In this document: positions 6,639 to 53,769 of the stretch, piece by piece
Position numbering within the stretch: position 1 is the stretch's first letter
Layout of the letters: each line of letters starts with the position of its first letter
Assembly: GCA_019241645.1 (NCBI GenBank)
Contig: JAFAWQ010000043.1
Span: 1-64,000, forward strand
DNA: 64,000 nucleotides
Direction of reading: 5' to 3'
DNA from: Alphaproteobacteria bacterium
GTDB lineage: Bacteria > Pseudomonadota > Alphaproteobacteria > Micropepsales > Micropepsaceae
The notes under the pieces: model-generated
The model's input: only the letters and a program-made list of their open reading frames with translations
What the model was told of the DNA's origin: nothing
Databases searched by the model: none
Translations under genes and position numbers: made by a program

Positions 6639-8054
6639 TCAGTTCCGGTAACAGACCGCTTTCGCGGCCGCGATAATGTAATCGATGGTTGGCAGCGCGA
6701 GTTTTTCAAGATTGGCGGCGTAAGGCATCGGCACGTCCTTGCCCGTGACCTTGGTTGGCGGTGCATCGAGATAGTCGAACGCCTTGCCGACGATCTGGGA
6801 GGCAATTTCAGAACCGACAGAGCAGATTGGCCAGCCCTGCTCCACCGTAACGATGCGATTGGTCTTCTTCACGGACTCGATCACGGTGGCCGTGTCGAGG
6901 GGGCGCAAGGTGCGCAGATCGATCAGCTCGGCATCAATGCCTTCGCCCGCCAGCTTCTCCGCGGCCTCCACGATCTGGCCGACGCAAATGGAATGCGCGA
7001 CGATGGTGACGTCTTTCCCCGCCCGAAGCACCTTCGCCTTGCCGATGGGCACAAGGTATTCGTCCATCTTCGGCACCGGAAAGGACCGGCCGTAAACGAT
7101 TTCATTCTCCAGAAAAATGACGGGATTGGGATCGCGGATCGCCGCCTTCAGCAATCCTTTGGCATCGGCGGCAAAGTAGGGCGCGATCACCTTCAGGCCC
7201 GGCACATTCGCGTACCAGCTCGAATAGTCCTGGCTGTGCTGCGCCGCGACGCGCGCGGCCGCGCCATTGGGACCACGGAAGACGATGGGACAACCCATCT
7301 GCCCGCCGGACATATAGCGAGTTTTTGCTGCCGAATTGATGATCTGATCGATCGCCTGCATGGCGAAATTCCAGGTCATGAATTCCACGATGGGCTTTAA
7401 CCCGCCGAACGCCGCACCCACACCCAGTCCCGCGAAGCCATGCTCCGTGATGGGGGTGTCGATCACCCGCTCGGCTCCGAACTCATCGAGCAGGCCCTGG
7501 CTGATTTTATAGGCGCCCTGATACTGCGCGACCTCCTCGCCCATCAGGAACACGGATGCATCGCGGCGCATTTCTTCGGCCATCGCGTCGCGCAAGGCTT
7601 CACGCACGGTCACGGTCACGAGTTCGGTGCCTTCCGGCACTTCCATGTCGGCAAGAGCGGCTTCGGCACGGCCGGTATCGTCCGCGACGCGCGCCGCGGG
7701 CTTGCCCCGGGCTACTTCCTCGCGAACTTCGGCTTCCGCCTGCTGCTTGGTTTCTTCGCGCGCGCCTTTGACCTGGATCGCCGCGACCGATTCAGGCTCC
7801 TCGGCATCGTCGCCGTCCGCGACCAGGACGGCAATCGGCTGATTGACCTTTACGCCTTCTGTTCCTTCAGCGACCAGAAGCTTTCCGATGCGGCCTTCGT
7901 CCACCGCCTCGAATTCCATCGTGGCCTTGTCGGTCTCGATTTCCGCAAGGATATCGCCGGACCGGACCTCATCGCCTTCCTTGACCAGCCACTTGGCTAG
8001 CTTGCCCTCCTCCATGGTGGGCGAAAGCGCCGGCATGAGAATCTGTGTGCTCAT
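6639..8054 (-). CDS. pdhB: Pyruvate dehydrogenase E1 beta subunit with fused N-terminal lipoyl domain
   Basis: 471 residues. The N-terminal 80 residues are a lipoyl domain almost identical in its first 28 residues to that of pdhC ([21 protein letters not shown], lysine in [10 protein letters not shown]). An Ala/Glu-rich linker leads to the transketolase-like E1-beta domain from about residue 135 ([15 protein letters not shown]). Extra lipoyl domains on E1 beta are typical of alphaproteobacteria. With PdhA it decarboxylates pyruvate using thiamine diphosphate. The start codon immediately follows the pdhA stop, and the gene precedes GFA and pdhC in the same run. Confidence 0.96.
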
Positions 8055-9050
8055 CTAGGCGTAGATGTCGGTGAAGAGTTCGTCCGTTGAAGGCTCGGGG
8101 CTTTCGGTGGCGAATTCAGCCGCCGTGTTCACGATGCCGCGAATTGCCTTGTCCATCCCCTTAAGCTCATCCTCGCGCAAGGCGCCGCGCTGCAGCAGCC
8201 GCGCGCCATAGTGCTCAATGGGATCGCGCTTCTCGCGCACCTCTTGCACTTCCTCCCGCGTGCGATATTTCGCGGGATCGCTCATCGAGTGTCCCCGGTA
8301 GCGATATGTTTTCAGCTCGAGGATGATGGGGCCCTTCCCAGAGCGCGCATATTCCGTAGCGCGCTGGCCGGCCTCATACACGGCCTCCACATCCATGCCG
8401 TCCACCTTCTCGCCCGGAATGTCGAAGGACGCACCGCGTTTGCAGAGTTCGGGGGTCGCGCTCGAACGCTCGACGCTGGTGCCCATCGCGTACTGGTTGT
8501 TCTCAATGATGTAGACAACGGGAAGCTTCCACAGCGCCGCCATGTTGAAGCTTTCGTAAACTTGCCCCTGGTTGGCCGCCCCATCGCCGAAATAGGTCAG
8601 GCACACCGCACCATTCTTTTTGTACCTGTTCGAGAAGGCCAATCCGGTGCCGATCGGCACTTGCGCCCCCACGATGCCGTGGCCGCCATAGAAGTGCTGC
8701 TCGACGGAGAACATGTGCATCGAGCCGCCCTTGCCCTTCGAATAGCCGGTGGCGCGGCCGGTTAGTTCCGCCATCACGCCCTTGGGATCCATGCCGGTGG
8801 CCAGCATGTGGCCGTGGTCACGATAGGCGGTGATGACCTGATCGCCGGGCTTCAGGGCCGCCTGCATCCCCACGACCACCGCTTCCTGCCCGATATAGAG
8901 GTGACAGAAGCCGCCGATCAGCCCCATGCCGTAGAGCTGACCTGCCTTCTCTTCGAACCGTCGGATGAGCAGCATGTCATAATAGAATTTCTTAGCCAGC
9001 GCGGCATCGAGGCCAGCTTCGGGCTCCTCTTTTCGGGCCGGCTCAGACAT
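8055..9050 (-). CDS. pdhA: Pyruvate dehydrogenase E1 alpha subunit
   Basis: 331 residues, the usual length for alphaproteobacterial E1 alpha. The thiamine diphosphate/Mg site is visible as GDGAANQGQVYESFNMAAL (about 170-188), followed by IENNQYAMGTSVERSSA. The phosphorylation-loop-like YRGHSMSDPAKYR lies near 265. It forms the heterotetrameric E1 with PdhB, whose start codon abuts this stop. A gap of about 100 bases separates it from ftsB upstream, so a promoter for the pdh genes could lie at 9051-9154, although I see no clear consensus there. Confidence 0.97.
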   Translation of the reverse strand: MSEPARKEEPEAGLDAALAKKFYYDMLLIRRFEEKAGQLYGMGLIGGFCHLYIGQEAVVVGMQAALKPGDQVITAYRDHGHMLATGMDPKGVMAELTGRATGYSKGKGGSMHMFSVEQHFYGGHGIVGAQVPIGTGLAFSNRYKKNGAVCLTYFGDGAANQGQVYESFNMAALWKLPVVYIIENNQYAMGTSVERSSATPELCKRGASFDIPGEKVDGMDVEAVYEAGQRATEYARSGKGPIILELKTYRYRGHSMSDPAKYRTREEVQEVREKRDPIEHYGARLLQRGALREDELKGMDKAIRGIVNTAAEFATESPEPSTDELFTDIYA

Positions 9051-49284: not shown

Positions 49285-50313
49285 ATGGACAATCCGATTC
49301 TCGTGGAAGTGACGCGCGGCGAAATCGTTGAGAGCGTGCACAGGGGCGCTTTCGCCATCGCGCGGGCCGACGGCACGGTAGTTTTGGCGCTTGGCAACAT
49401 GGACGTGCCAGTCTTTCCGCGGTCCACCCTCAAACCGATTCAGGCGCTACCGCTGATCGAATCGGGAGCCGCCGACGCCTTTGGATTAGGCAACGAGGAG
49501 ATCGCGCTGGCCTGTGCGTCCCACTCTGGCGAGCCGATGCACACAAGGCGCGTTGCCGCATGGCTGGACAGGATTGGTTGTGCGGAACAGGATCTCGCCT
49601 GCGGTGCACATCCCGTTCGCTATCAGCCCGTGTGGACCGAGATGGTGCGCGAAGGTCAACAACCAACGCGCCTCCACAACAACTGCTCGGGAAAGCACAC
49701 CGGATTTCTGACAGTGGCGCGACATTGGGGGATCGCGACCGAAGGGTACGAACAGCACGATCATCCCGTGCAGCGGGCCATCGCCAAAGTTCTAGGTGAA
49801 CTTGCCGAAATCGATCTCGAATTGCCCTGGGGAGTCGATGGGTGCGCGGCTCCGAATTTCGCTTTGCCCATAACCGCAATGGCGCAAGCCTTGGCGAAAC
49901 TCGCCAATCCTTCAGGCCTGCCCGACGGTCGGGCTCAAGCCGTGCGACGCATCGTCGGCGCCATGATGGCGCATCCCGAACTTGTCGCAGGAACAGGCCG
50001 CAGCGATACGGTCCTGATGCGGGCTTGCCGCGGACGCGCAGCCACCAAGGCCGGCGCTGAAGGGTATTACGGCGGTATCATCCCGGAGGCCGGGCTGGGG
50101 ATTGCGCTCAAGATCGACGACGGCGCGGGACGCGCGGCCGAGACCGCGATGGCGGCGATCCTCGACAAGCTTGGCCTGTTGGGCGACGACGAGGCGGCAC
50201 ACAAAATTGTCCGCGCATCTGTGTTGAATACGCGCAAGGACATTGTCGGGGAGAGGCGCGCCGCGGCTTGTCTTGCTGGCGCGGACGTCACGAGATTACA
50301 AACGCGGCACTAA
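49285..50313 (+). CDS. Asparaginase, Rhizobium AnsA-type (asparaginase II family)
   Basis: 342 residues of the plant/Rhizobium-like thermolabile asparaginase II family (AnsA of Rhizobium etli), unrelated to E. coli AnsB. Typical sections: VTRGEIVESVHRGAFAIA, VFPRSTLKPIQALPLIESGAA, LACASHSGEPMHT, and LHNNCSGKHTGFLTVARHWG, where a serine-lysine pair is catalytic in this family. It hydrolyses L-asparagine to aspartate and ammonia. The stop converges on the radical SAM gene (4-base overlap). Confidence 0.92.
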   Translation: MDNPILVEVTRGEIVESVHRGAFAIARADGTVVLALGNMDVPVFPRSTLKPIQALPLIESGAADAFGLGNEEIALACASHSGEPMHTRRVAAWLDRIGCAEQDLACGAHPVRYQPVWTEMVREGQQPTRLHNNCSGKHTGFLTVARHWGIATEGYEQHDHPVQRAIAKVLGELAEIDLELPWGVDGCAAPNFALPITAMAQALAKLANPSGLPDGRAQAVRRIVGAMMAHPELVAGTGRSDTVLMRACRGRAATKAGAEGYYGGIIPEAGLGIALKIDDGAGRAAETAMAAILDKLGLLGDDEAAHKIVRASVLNTRKDIVGERRAAACLAGADVTRLQTRH

Positions 50314-51458
50314 GCGGCGCGAGGCGACTGCATCAGCCATTCCCGTGCCCAACCCCCGACCGTTCCAGCGTCAACGCCAGCCGCCGCAAGTTCGCTAATT
50401 ATCGCCGAGATGGTCAAACGCGGGACACCGCAAGCAGTCTTACCTGCCTCGCAGACAACCGACCCGTGCTCGTGCATTGGCGTACTGTCGCAAAAGCGCA
50501 CATGATCGCAGGAGAGGCAATGATGCCGCTTACGCGCGACAATCCAGTCCTGACAGCTATGATAGGGGCCGGCCTGAGTCATTTCCAGGATCGAGGAGGT
50601 AGCGAGGTTGCCGAGGCGGCGTGCAGGATCGTAAGCGAAGGGCCGGAGAAACACGTCCCCGTTTACGTTCACGACATAAATGTTGTCCAGCAGCGTACGC
50701 GCGGGATCGCCAGCACCCGGCTGATCCAGAATGCGCAGCACTGCCGCCCTTAAGTAAGTGTCCAGCGGTTCGACAGGCAGATGCCGTTCGGATTCCGCAC
50801 GCTTGGTCAGCAACTCGATCAGCGTTCGCGCAACCTCGGCGGCGGGCAAACGAAACATGCTCGTTGCCTCCGCCGGGCCGCCTTCGAACATCGGGAGAAT
50901 GCGCCAGCCAACGGCATTCTCGACGATCCAATCGTACGCCTCCGTCAGCCGGCCTCTGTTGTGGTTGCCCAGAACGGAGATCACGCCGAAATCATGCCCC
51001 CGCGCGCGCAACGCTTCCGCCGCTGCGATCACCCGCCCGTTGGACTCCCGGCCGCCGACATTGCGGCGAACGCCGTCCGCGAAATCAATGGAAACGCCGA
51101 GTTCCCAATTGAGAGTGAGCACATAATCAAGACTATCACGTTTCACGCCGTACAAATTGGTTTGCACGCTGTTGCGATAAGGATGGCGATGGATGTTCTG
51201 CTCCTGCGTCGACGCAATATGCCGGTAGAATTCCTTCGGCAGAAGCAGCGGTTCGCCCCCGTGCCAGACAAAGGAAAATTCTGGCGTAATCCCTAGTGTT
51301 GCAAGATGGTCGCCGAATGCGTCCACGCCGGCGAACAACTTTTGCAGCGTGCCGGGATGCATGCGGTCGCGCACATGGAGCTCGCGGTGCTCGTAGCAAT
51401 AGGCGCAGCGTAGGTTGCAGAACTTGGAAAGCTTTACGACGAATACAAGCTCATGCAT
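50310..51458 (-). CDS. Radical SAM/SPASM enzyme, candidate peptide-modifying maturase
   Basis: 382 residues. The radical SAM cluster motif is CNLRCAYC (C14, C18, C21). A C-terminal SPASM-like set of cysteines is C302, C314, C317, C323, C336 and C343, with the canonical CX2CX5C core, indicating auxiliary Fe-S clusters. Other parts match the anSME/RiPP-maturase architecture (FVWHGGEPLLLPKEFY, VQTNLYGV, GVSIDFADGVRR). Such enzymes install thioether, cyclophane or formylglycine-type changes on peptides or proteins. The upstream gene, 4 bases away, encodes a Tat-signal protein that could be the substrate. The exact chemistry is not predictable. Confidence 0.88.
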   Translation of the reverse strand: MHELVFVVKLSKFCNLRCAYCYEHRELHVRDRMHPGTLQKLFAGVDAFGDHLATLGITPEFSFVWHGGEPLLLPKEFYRHIASTQEQNIHRHPYRNSVQTNLYGVKRDSLDYVLTLNWELGVSIDFADGVRRNVGGRESNGRVIAAAEALRARGHDFGVISVLGNHNRGRLTEAYDWIVENAVGWRILPMFEGGPAEATSMFRLPAAEVARTLIELLTKRAESERHLPVEPLDTYLRAAVLRILDQPGAGDPARTLLDNIYVVNVNGDVFLRPFAYDPARRLGNLATSSILEMTQAGPYHSCQDWIVARKRHHCLSCDHVRFCDSTPMHEHGSVVCEAGKTACGVPRLTISAIISELAAAGVDAGTVGGWAREWLMQSPRAA

Positions 51459-51462
51459 TCAG

Positions 51463-51870
51463 CTAGTTATGTTTTGTGACTTTGCGTGCGATACCCACCT
51501 CGGCCCATTTTGTCATGATCAGACCGCTCGGCAGTTCATCATCTTTCACAAAACCGTCGTCTCCAACGTTTATCGTTTTTCCATTGATCGAAAAGGTAAT
51601 TGCTTTTGTTATCGGCTTATCCAAATGGAGGTCGTCAAGATTCAACATACCTTGAACAGAGGGCTTCACATATACCGAGACGTCATAGACCTTTATCCCA
51701 TCCCCTTCGGGAACGAACAGATAACTCGCGGATGGATTACCTTGCGGCCATCGCAGCAGAATCCGTTGATGAACTTTTCGCCCCCCAGCCCTCACTGCTG
51801 ATGAAATGGACGCCGCGCCAATAGCAGAGACAACAGCAGTCTTGAAGAGATTACGTCTTGTTTGAACCAT
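51463..51870 (-). CDS. Tat-exported protein, possible substrate of the radical SAM enzyme
   Basis: 135 residues from ATG 51870, preceded by AGGGGGA. A twin-arginine signal is evident: TRRNLFKTAVVSAIGAASISSAVRA. The mature domain of about 105 residues is beta-rich (ILLRWPQGNPSASYLFVPEGDGIKVYDVSVYVK, then TKAITFSINGKTINVGDDGFV) and ends in GLIMTKWAEVGIARKVTKHN, a basic aromatic tail. No cysteine is present. I recognise no family. Tat export suggests it folds, and may be modified, in the cytoplasm before leaving, which fits a partner enzyme encoded next to it. Confidence 0.75.
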   Translation of the reverse strand: MVQTRRNLFKTAVVSAIGAASISSAVRAGGRKVHQRILLRWPQGNPSASYLFVPEGDGIKVYDVSVYVKPSVQGMLNLDDLHLDKPITKAITFSINGKTINVGDDGFVKDDELPSGLIMTKWAEVGIARKVTKHN

Positions 51871-51936
51871 TGCACTTTCCCCCTTGGCCCAATCAAATCT
51901 AGTCAAATTAGCAAGGCGGGCAAGAGTGCTTTCTGC

Positions 51937-53769
51937 TCAATTTCGAGCTAGCTGTTCGGCCAATCGTTCGTGTGCCTCTTGCCATGCGCGGGCGCCGGGG
52001 CGTGCCAAGAGCGCTTTCCAACCCGCGCTTTGCACCAAATCCGCTGGCGTGCCCGCCGTAAGCGGCACGGAAAAAATATGGGCGTTGCGCTTGTCATATC
52101 CGCGTTCGAACCATGGCAACGCGGCATCAAATTCATTCGCCAACGCATAGAAATAACCGATATCCCCTTCGTCGAATATGAAAGAGGGGAAGTCGCCGGC
52201 GAGCGTTCTGGCGAGACGATGTGCGTGCTGCCTGTCTCCGGAAAGCGAAGCAATCTTCAAGGCGCAAGCCGCCGAGGCATCTTTTTGCAGCGTTGCGAGC
52301 TGCCTTACGACAGCCCGCGCCCTGTCAAGGCGTTTCATGCCTGCGTACGCCAAACACAGGCTGTAGAGCGCCAACGGCCGATTTGGCTTTAGCGACAGCG
52401 CATCTTCCGCCGCCGACGCCGCTTCGACGTACTGGCCACGGTCATTGTAGACCGATGCCAAATTGTTGAGATCGACGAACGATAACGGGTCAAGCCGGGT
52501 TGCTTCGCGCAACACAGCCGCCTCTTGTTCCGGAAAACCGAGGGCATCGTAGAATGAGAAAAGCCCCCGGAGTGTATAGACGTTGTGAGCATTGATCGTT
52601 TGAAGGGATTTCGCATCTTTCGCAGCCGCCCGCCAATCCCATTTCAGTGTCGCCAGGTGTAGATGGGTGGCAAGGGCTTCAAGGTTTCGAGGATCGGACT
52701 TGAGGGCGTGCTGCAAGGCAGTTTCTGCCGACAGCAGCAATTTTGGCTGATCGTTGTGGAACTGCGCCATATGCAAATACGTGCGGCCCAGTGCCGCGAA
52801 AGCTGGCGCGAATCTTGGTTCGCGGGCGGCGACTCTCTTAAATATCTCGACCGATTTCGCGTCGCCTTCATCGGTCTTCAGCGCTGCGAGCGCCTTCGCT
52901 TTCAGGTAATCGCGATACGCAGCGGGATCGATCGGCGTGCGTTCTCCCTGCGTGGCGACAGGAAGTTGGCCACCGCTTAGCGTATGGGTGAGTGCCGCTG
53001 CGATGGAATTCGCGATCTCGTCCTGCAACTGAAGTACGTTGCTGAGGTCCCGGTCATAGACACTCGACCACAGCTGGTAGCCGTCGCTTGCCTTGATCAG
53101 CTGCGCGGCAATGCGAAGATGATGGCCGTCTTCGCGCACGCTGCCCTCAACAACAGCACTTACATTCAGCGCACGGGCAATCTCGCGAATGTCTTTGTTT
53201 TTCCCTTTGAAGGAGAAAGACGAGGTCCGGGCCGCTACGCGTAGTGTTCGTGCGCTTGCAAGATGGTTGAGCAGCTCATCTGCGATACCGTCGCTGAAAT
53301 ACTCCTTGGCAGGGTCGCCACTTAAGTTGAGGAAAGGCAGCACAGCGACCGAGGCGGGCGGCGGACTGGGCACATTGCGGAAGTAGTAATGGTGTTCACG
53401 CGCGGCCGCAGGGGCGGACTTCTTTCCAATCAGACCGAACTGGAAAGCGAACTGGACGCCGACGAACACAAGCACCAACGAAAGGATGACCAGAAGCGCC
53501 ACATCCGTTCGTCGCAGAGCTTCGATTCCCTGCCCCAGGTCTTGCGCGGGAGCCGCGGCATGCCAGGCGATCCAAAGCGCAAGCGGAAAGCCCGTAACCG
53601 CTGCGGCAATCAAAACCTTCAGGACCCAAACGGGCGCGCCGAAGGTTGGGAGCGCGATGGAAGCCGCCTGGACCAAAATCCATGCGGCCACCGCATAGGC
53701 AGCGGCAACCCGGTCAAGCTTGCGTTGCTGAATGGCCCTAAGCAGACTTTGCACAGTGCGACCCCTCAT
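51937..53769 (-). CDS. TolB-N-like / tetratricopeptide-repeat membrane protein
   Basis: 610 residues. Two or three membrane helices lie within residues 20-115 (AAYAVAAWILVQAASIALP, VLKVLIAAAVTGFPLALWIAWH, VALLVILSLVLVFVGVQFAFQFG). Then comes a TolB-N-like/adenylate-cyclase-associated domain (SVAVLPFLNLSGDPAKEYFSDGIADELLNHLA near 140), followed by TPR repeats to the end. Such proteins often carry an N-terminal winged-helix regulator domain; here it is replaced by a short basic segment. It lies 66 bases upstream of the Tat gene on the same strand, so the three may form one transcript. Role unknown. Confidence 0.88.
   Translation of the reverse strand: MRGRTVQSLLRAIQQRKLDRVAAAYAVAAWILVQAASIALPTFGAPVWVLKVLIAAAVTGFPLALWIAWHAAAPAQDLGQGIEALRRTDVALLVILSLVLVFVGVQFAFQFGLIGKKSAPAAAREHHYYFRNVPSPPPASVAVLPFLNLSGDPAKEYFSDGIADELLNHLASARTLRVAARTSSFSFKGKNKDIREIARALNVSAVVEGSVREDGHHLRIAAQLIKASDGYQLWSSVYDRDLSNVLQLQDEIANSIAAALTHTLSGGQLPVATQGERTPIDPAAYRDYLKAKALAALKTDEGDAKSVEIFKRVAAREPRFAPAFAALGRTYLHMAQFHNDQPKLLLSAETALQHALKSDPRNLEALATHLHLATLKWDWRAAAKDAKSLQTINAHNVYTLRGLFSFYDALGFPEQEAAVLREATRLDPLSFVDLNNLASVYNDRGQYVEAASAAEDALSLKPNRPLALYSLCLAYAGMKRLDRARAVVRQLATLQKDASAACALKIASLSGDRQHAHRLARTLAGDFPSFIFDEGDIGYFYALANEFDAALPWFERGYDKRNAHIFSVPLTAGTPADLVQSAGWKALLARPGARAWQEAHERLAEQLARN

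Follow-up and report, generated by a model that had tools for sequence, protein, structure and literature searches.

A radical SAM enzyme gene paired with a fast-diverging twin-arginine protein whose C-terminal tag is a possible site of modification

The locus

Within a stretch of 64,000 nucleotides from the Micropepsaceae contig JAFAWQ010000043.1 (assembly GCA_019241645.1; the whole stretch is called the window hereafter), three genes run leftward in close succession, encoding a membrane protein with tetratricopeptide repeats (TPR), a short protein that begins with a signal of the twin-arginine translocation (Tat) type, and a radical S-adenosylmethionine (SAM) enzyme. The gaps are 66 bases between the TPR and short-protein genes and 4 bases between the short-protein and enzyme genes, and the open reading frame (ORF) coordinates thus bear out the close leftward spacing reported in the preliminary description of the window. 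The last two genes, and a five-residue tag near the C-terminus of the short protein, are the main subject here.

51937-53769, minus strand: gene of the TPR protein, 610 residues (ORF).
51463-51870, minus strand: gene of the twin-arginine-signal protein, 135 residues from the ATG, the proposed substrate (ORF; counterpart upstream of the enzyme gene in all three carriers of the enzyme).
51811-51870, minus strand: twin-arginine signal region MVQTRRNLFKTAVVSAIGAA, the first 20 residues (identity 0.49 among the five family members).
51493-51507, minus strand: C-terminal tag W122-A-E-V-G126, proposed as the site that the enzyme recognises and modifies (all five members have W-[AN]-E-[IV]-G).
50310-51458, minus strand: gene of the radical SAM/SPASM maturase, 382 residues (PF04055, DynA-like score, orthologues 62% and 56% identical).
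51396-51419, minus strand: CxxxCxxC motif of the enzyme, C14, C18 and C21 (sequence alignment).
50430-50519, minus strand: auxiliary-cluster cysteines C314, C317, C323 and C343, an AuxII-like CX2CX5C...C set (present in all four rows of enzyme alignment A3).

The enzyme and short-protein genes form a conserved pair

Among 96 genomes of the order, three carry the enzyme (E<=1e-20): the window's own genome, G000, and two others, G811 and G804, whose locus records (L018 and L019, respectively) were matched to them by contig, place and score. L018 and L019 are also the clear relatives in a species-level scan with one genome per species, at 62% and 55% identity, and both come from alphaproteobacterial metagenome bins. 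The third row of that scan, a Heliobacterium enzyme 28% identical, was considered too distant to count as an orthologue, and distant enzymes in five other genomes (best E 4e-13; among 61 genomes, own included) were likewise not taken as orthologues.

In each of the three carriers the gene upstream of the enzyme encodes a short twin-arginine protein, 3-12 bases away; counted to the enzyme's GTG (in L018 the first in frame), the gap is 3 bases in L018 and 12 in L019. The pair stays together in G804 although the downstream genes differ there, being a tRNA-Asp (1820-1896) and genes read by eye as nuo-like, while the upstream side lies past the contig end. This tRNA-Asp, just downstream of the enzyme gene, falls outside the neighbourhood common to G000 and G811, and the different surroundings suggest that the pair has moved. 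Adjacency in three of three carriers is more than chance, and the two genes do form a genuine pair. The same adjacency supports the earlier proposal that the short Tat-type protein is a likely partner or substrate of the enzyme: the two genes do co-occur in the carriers within the order, as had been suggested as a check, and none of the three orthologues of the enzyme lacks the Tat gene; such a lack would have told against the proposal. With an adjacent gene conserved in 3/3 carriers and W[AN]E[IV]G present in 5/5 proteins, the arrangement is that of an enzyme and precursor pair of the ribosomally synthesised and post-translationally modified peptide (RiPP) type.

Wider searches returned only more distant enzymes, which show no tagged neighbour, as expected of other families. 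Enzyme profile A1 found the window's own genome alone among 385 genomes of the class at E<=1e-25. Profile A3 gave matches in 9 of 398 genomes of the phylum at E<=1e-20, own included, and at the nine other places (eight genomes) no W-x-E-[IV]-G occurred in frames of at least 40 codons within about 1.5 kb on either side; four of these places (L042, L044, L045 and L046) adjoin genes that look sulfatase-like by eye. Plasmids held no enzyme match at 1e-15, and for the short protein one non-significant row (E 0.6).

A family of twin-arginine proteins with a common tag

Over the same 96 genomes we searched two profiles of the short protein, A2, built from the three adjacent proteins, and A4, built from all five family members. 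A2 recovered its own three rows and two significant distal copies, both in carriers of the enzyme: G000:C44 (E 5.3e-11), where the matched profile positions 1-123 leave out the tag, and G804:C86 (E 3.6e-8), where positions 1-136 take it in; three other rows were weak (E 0.009-0.02). A4 returned its five own rows by construction, no sixth strong match and three weak ones, of which one lay in an epimerase-like protein and two were the N-terminal twin-arginine regions of small cysteine-containing proteins that, judged by sequence, resemble high-potential iron-sulfur proteins (HiPIP). The five members, in three genomes, range from 135 to 163 residues; the adjacent proteins of L018 and L019 share 33% and 24% identity with that of the window. 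In both G000 and G804 the distal gene is flanked by dnaE on one side and a divergent ArsR/SRPBCC group on the other (named by eye); given this common position, the distal copy probably predates the divergence of these genomes. At loci L100 and L101 the distal tagged gene, at about 7100-8100, is divergent from the ArsR/SRPBCC group and precedes dnaE. Searched as a single sequence against 398 phylum genomes (E<=0.001), the short protein recovered nothing beyond the adjacent copy of its own genome; such a search is insensitive, since it missed the distal copy in the same genome. None of the five proteins matches any NCBIfam model, and for the window's copy neither Pfam nor NCBIfam gave a match at E<=0.1, nor the PDB a relative at E<=1, which agrees with its first description as a 135-residue protein of no known family.

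The window's short protein begins MVQTRRNLFK and continues into a hydrophobic stretch; the Tat motif is S/T-R-R-x-F-L-K-like and stands before such a stretch. The twin arginine is invariant in all five proteins, and four of them have TRR-x-[LV]-F-[KR]. When compared by eye with the Tat motif, the family retains RR throughout (5/5), and in two of the three weak profile matches the matched part is likewise the twin-arginine N-terminus of a HiPIP-like protein. A lipobox is present in two members (LAAC in L018 and LAGC in L032), so some of the short proteins may be lipoproteins.

At the other end, W-[AN]-E-[IV]-G stands close to the C-terminus of all five proteins, with 2-17 unrelated residues after it, the distal tails reading ...LAWNEVGRK in G000:C44 and ...VSWNEIGHKS in G804:C86. 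Because the A2 match to G000:C44 stops at profile position 123, the tag of that protein is an independent observation. Averaged over the 10 pairs that the five proteins form, identity falls from 0.80 in the tag to 0.49 across the 20 N-terminal residues and 0.29 in the middle, where shuffled sequences give about 0.23. The C-terminus had been put forward as a plausible target region, with its conservation as a check; what is conserved there is the five residues WAEVG, and not the basic tail IARKVTKHN or any of the residues after the tag. Positions invariant in the five-row alignment are R5, R6, S15 and G18 in the signal, G58 and D79 in the middle, and W, E and G in the tag. Calculated from the composition of the middles and ignoring common descent, the probability that a tail of 30 residues contains W-x-E-[IV]-G by chance is about 8e-5 per protein. 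A DNA pattern for WNE[IV]G matched four times in the three carrier genomes, each time in a known tail, and the reversed control pattern once. Codons for Glu, Asn, Ile and Gly of the tag vary between copies while the residues stay, and these synonymous differences point to constraint at the level of the protein.

The pair evolves fast. Between G000 and G804, identity is 89.8% for DnaE and 85% for ArsR, compared with 55.7% for the enzyme, 40% for the distal short proteins and 30% for the adjacent ones; between G000 and G811 it is 94.4% for an ABC ATPase and 74-75% for asparaginase, compared with 61.6% for the enzyme, 60.5% for the TPR protein and 27-34%, depending on the alignment, for the adjacent short proteins. 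In the enzyme the nonsynonymous rate (dN, 0.31-0.38) is far below the synonymous rate (dS, 1.6-3.0, near saturation), as in a working gene. Synonymous sites of the short proteins are saturated and their dN/dS is uninterpretable.

The enzyme is related to peptide and sulfatase maturases

The enzyme matches PF04055 with 48.1 bits against a cut-off of 29.5 and has the CxxxCxxC motif, placing it in the radical SAM superfamily. Its description as a SPASM enzyme fares less evenly, as the Pfam SPASM score of the window's copy (14.9) is below the cut-off of 21.5, which both orthologues exceed (23.0 and 24.0). Nor are all cluster cysteines present, as had been stated. In a hidden Markov model alignment to the anaerobic sulfatase maturase anSMEcpe, the CX2CX5C cysteines do align, and the cysteines of CGMNGTC and PC, which we take to be the AuxI ligands, face no cysteine in the window's enzyme. 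The AuxII-like set is therefore kept, with C343 conserved in all four rows of A3, while the AuxI-type positions, by this assignment, are without cysteine, and two complete auxiliary clusters are not found. As far as the sequence goes, one clear auxiliary cluster remains. An alternative ligand, such as C302, may mark a rearranged second cluster site; C302 is common to the three orthologues and absent from L033, a relative on a viral contig described below. Both orthologues also have a cysteine just before LGN that the window's enzyme lacks.

Among NCBIfam models, the best scores of the enzyme include DynA, sulfatase maturase, AmcB, DarW, GrrM/OscB and YhhB. DynA (NF041298) is the best match, with 122.9 bits over residues 4-325 (cut-off 450), and anaerobic sulfatase maturase (TIGR03942) the second, with 96.1 bits (cut-off 349.45). 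Models of cyclophane-forming enzymes also score below their cut-offs (AmcB 77.1/425, GrrM/OscB 61.5/310, YhhB 57/445, FxsB 44.1/370 and XyeB 19.1/450 bits), as does the radical SAM/lipoprotein model TIGR04133 (30.0 bits, cut-off 425). The relatives are mainly peptide and sulfatase maturases, all below cut-off among the 25 of 42 matches listed. An AlphaFold2 (AF2) model built from the four-row alignment has a predicted local distance difference test score (pLDDT) of 71.5, and its closest fold is anSMEcpe, followed by ChlB. The Pfam scan showed no RiPP recognition domain for the enzyme.

Proposed mechanism and alternatives

We propose that the enzyme recognises the W-[AN]-E-[IV]-G tag of small twin-arginine proteins in the cytoplasm. 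Its substrates would be the protein encoded beside it and, in two of the three carriers, a second one encoded far off, next to dnaE. By analogy with its closest families, the enzyme would most likely join the ring of the tag Trp to a side-chain carbon within the tag, with an acceptor that could be either the Glu at i+2, as in three-residue cyclophanes, or the Ile/Val at i+3, the spacing of the Trp-Asn link of dynobactin. Thioether chemistry is unlikely because the window's short protein has no Cys. The modified proteins, as their sequences suggest, would then be exported by Tat and be released, anchored or lipidated in the envelope. Tat transports folded proteins, and it is this property, with the signal pattern, that would place export after modification. 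In its general form, that of a two-part system acting in part in trans, in which the enzyme modifies the C-terminal tag of Tat-type proteins in the cytoplasm before export, we consider the proposal reasonably probable. The narrower statement that a single radical SAM enzyme, acting in trans, closes a macrocycle in the five-residue C-terminal tag throughout a fast-diverging, Tat-exported protein family is tentative, and we regard it as a possibility that is more doubtful than likely.

Several points weigh against this proposal. That the enzyme would modify these proteins at all is predicted from sequence and gene context only. Neither Glu at i+2 nor Ile/Val at i+3 is among the cross-linked residues described in the portion of PMC11002830 drawn on here. 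There are only three carriers, all of one genus, and the pairing probably had a single origin; G804 is the closest GyrB relative of G000 (91%, next 85%; G811 gave no GyrB match), so the three cases of co-occurrence probably did not arise independently. In G811, which is 82% complete, the A2 and A4 searches found no distal copy. The adjacent copy in the window has WAEVG rather than WNE and falls outside the WNE[IV]G DNA pattern. Furthermore, the tag may be conserved as the end of a homologous fold instead of as an enzyme site, given that invariance extends to G58, D79 and, apart from RR, two positions of the signal, and the AF2 model of the short protein is poor (pLDDT 45.8) and too weak for a fold search. 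Lastly, export by Tat rather than Sec is judged from the sequence pattern alone.

Of the other explanations, one that we consider fairly unlikely is that the enzyme has a different target, the twin-arginine protein being its partner or a mere co-transcribed neighbour. Shared ancestry of three related carriers can explain conserved adjacency, but the pair is intact in G804 despite the different genes downstream, and tagged paralogues elsewhere occur only in enzyme carriers among the 96 genomes searched. To a similarly low degree of probability, the short proteins may not be Tat-exported, with an N-terminus that is a Sec signal or a membrane anchor. L031 has no cleavage site obvious by eye, and the signal-like N-terminus of the protein partnering the L033 enzyme lacks a twin arginine; against this stand the twin arginine of all five members, the fuller motif of four, the lipobox of two and the twin-arginine N-termini of HiPIP-like proteins that make up two of the three weak outside matches.

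Slightly less plausible is that the tag is only a recognition handle and the enzyme modifies another residue, for example an aromatic of the middle. Invariance of the tag does not by itself locate the chemistry, and G58 and D79 of the middle are invariant too; however, the middles are barely above shuffled identity, no aromatic in them is invariant, and outside the signal invariant positions cluster nowhere but at W, E and G of the tag.

It is improbable that the TPR membrane protein is a required partner in a three-gene system, although its gene lies on the same strand at 66 bases, keeps the same order in G811, and has relatives at E<=1e-100 in 8 of 96 genomes (14 places), three per enzyme carrier and one in each of five others. 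Those five of eight genomes have no enzyme, and the only TPR orthologue above 45% besides the window's own is that of G811 (60.5%), beside the enzyme gene. G804, which is 99% complete and has the enzyme pair, has a best listed TPR homologue of 40% (13 of 19 candidates scored), on other contigs; its enzyme contig starts 174 bases before the short gene, too close for an adjacent TPR gene to show. Membership of the TPR gene in the system, as first suggested, is thus not upheld by a 61% orthologue in G811 alone, and the gene is probably a bystander that we treat as a neighbour. Some TPR paralogues stand beside ATP-synthase or unrelated genes, which further counts against a required partner (by eye, among the loci listed). 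No tagged protein was noticed by eye near the TPR paralogues among the neighbours listed.

That the enzyme is an anaerobic sulfatase-maturase-like protein oxidising a Cys or Ser of its neighbour by formylglycine chemistry is very improbable: such a maturase is its second-best NCBIfam relative and its best solved structure, but the 96.1 bits are far under the cut-off, the AuxI-type ligands are missing, no sulfatase occurs among the neighbours scanned with NCBIfam and Pfam, and C/S-x-[AP]-x-R, presumably the substrate motif of these enzymes, is absent from four of the five short proteins and in the window's copy matches only residues 23-27, at the end of the signal.

Relation to known systems

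Anaerobic sulfatase maturases modify, in the cytoplasm, proteins destined for export. The one most like the window's enzyme, by both sequence and fold, is anSMEcpe (PDB 4k36-4k39), the best solved-structure match; it differs in the AuxI-type ligands, which the window's enzyme does not have, and in that there is no sulfatase among the scanned neighbours. The second structural relative, ChlB (PDB 9gm3 and 9gmc), is 19-20% identical and, going by the entry titles, is a radical SAM protein with a precursor leader region. TIGR04133 ('rSAM_w_lipo'), which we take to describe a radical SAM/lipoprotein pair of Bacteroidetes, shares the idea of a SPASM enzyme with an exported lipoprotein and differs in score (30.0 versus 425 bits).

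For the proposed chemistry, one comparison is with the triceptide enzymes GrrM/OscB, YhhB, AmcB and XyeB, which, according to the part of PMC11002830 consulted, are radical SAM/SPASM enzymes encoded beside a precursor with a Trp in a short conserved motif, and which link Trp to the C-beta of an Arg, Asn or Asp two residues on (i+2). W-x-E, with the same i/i+2 cyclophane spacing, is present in all five short proteins, and the AmcB, GrrM/OscB and YhhB models match the window's enzyme, all under cut-off. Here, unlike in triceptides, the proposed substrate is a Tat-signal protein of 135-163 residues and a second substrate would be served in trans. The dynobactin and darobactin maturases DynA, DarW and DarE offer the other comparison, as DynA is the best match and the link of Trp(i) to Asn(i+3) in dynobactin, described in the same portion of PMC11002830, has the spacing of W to I/V here; they differ in that the DynA cut-off of 450 is not reached and no short antibiotic-type precursor was seen beside the window's enzyme.

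MNIO-modified signal-peptide RiPPs (bufferins, PMC12452194) are alike in being small enzyme-modified proteins with an export signal; in the sections of that source used here, they differ in enzyme superfamily, in their Sec signal and in a mostly Cys-based chemistry. The same 2025 study of the MNIO class states, in those sections, that 'there must be a mechanism' keeping precursors with export signals in the cytoplasm until they are modified (PMC12452194). If our reading is right, the present system would be a test case for such retention, and export through Tat, a route for folded proteins, would remove the problem of premature export in signal-peptide RiPPs.

The system would be a variant of the known radical SAM/RiPP strategy of protein modification, and our searches of open-licence papers found no description of this enzyme and tagged-protein system. 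Most work on radical SAM RiPP enzymes concerns short precursors encoded nearby. The enzyme described here appears to act on two or more exported proteins of folded size that are encoded at separate places and share a tail of five residues; if true, this tail would be a portable C-terminal tag with which radical chemistry could be directed to whole proteins.

Neighbouring genes and distant relatives

The three-gene run is preceded by a gene for an Nramp transporter (Pfam scan) and followed by one more annotated gene:

49285-50313, plus strand: asparaginase II (Pfam scan).

In L018 the neighbours on both sides are those of the window, save for an extra ORF of 135 residues before the TPR gene. 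The TPR protein had been described as a TolB/TPR protein; its TPR-type repeats pass the Pfam cut-off, whereas TolB was not found as a Pfam domain. Several of its paralogues (L048-L061) adjoin ATP-synthase-like genes and others unrelated genes (by eye, among the loci listed).

Viral contigs yielded two relatives of the enzyme, L033 and L034, and further searches of viral contigs gave no new ones; phage records queried with the L033 enzyme gave 9 distant matches at 22-24% identity.

L033, 4710-6137 of viral contig IMGVR_UViG_3300043270_000050: radical SAM enzyme, 30% identical, with the same four auxiliary cysteines.

Six bases upstream of this enzyme lies the gene of a protein of about 90 residues, with an N-terminus that is signal-like by eye, several Trp and W-A-N-V near the C-terminus. 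W-A-N-V resembles W-A-E-V of the window, and by this sequence likeness L033 may represent a relative of the system that is carried by a virus or prophage. L034 (113-1557 of viral contig IMGVR_UViG_3300005077_000461) has a radical SAM enzyme and, after it, a Trp-rich ORF of 88 residues (QWENYFVWDR...DWNQYNPWG), which on this phage-like contig is a candidate precursor of a cross-linked peptide. In a genome of the same class (G314), L040 (305-2607) has a SPASM-like radical SAM gene, an upstream ORF ending ...ERYWDQKWDENW and an ORF of 289 residues between them, and looks like an uncharacterised peptide-maturation cluster.

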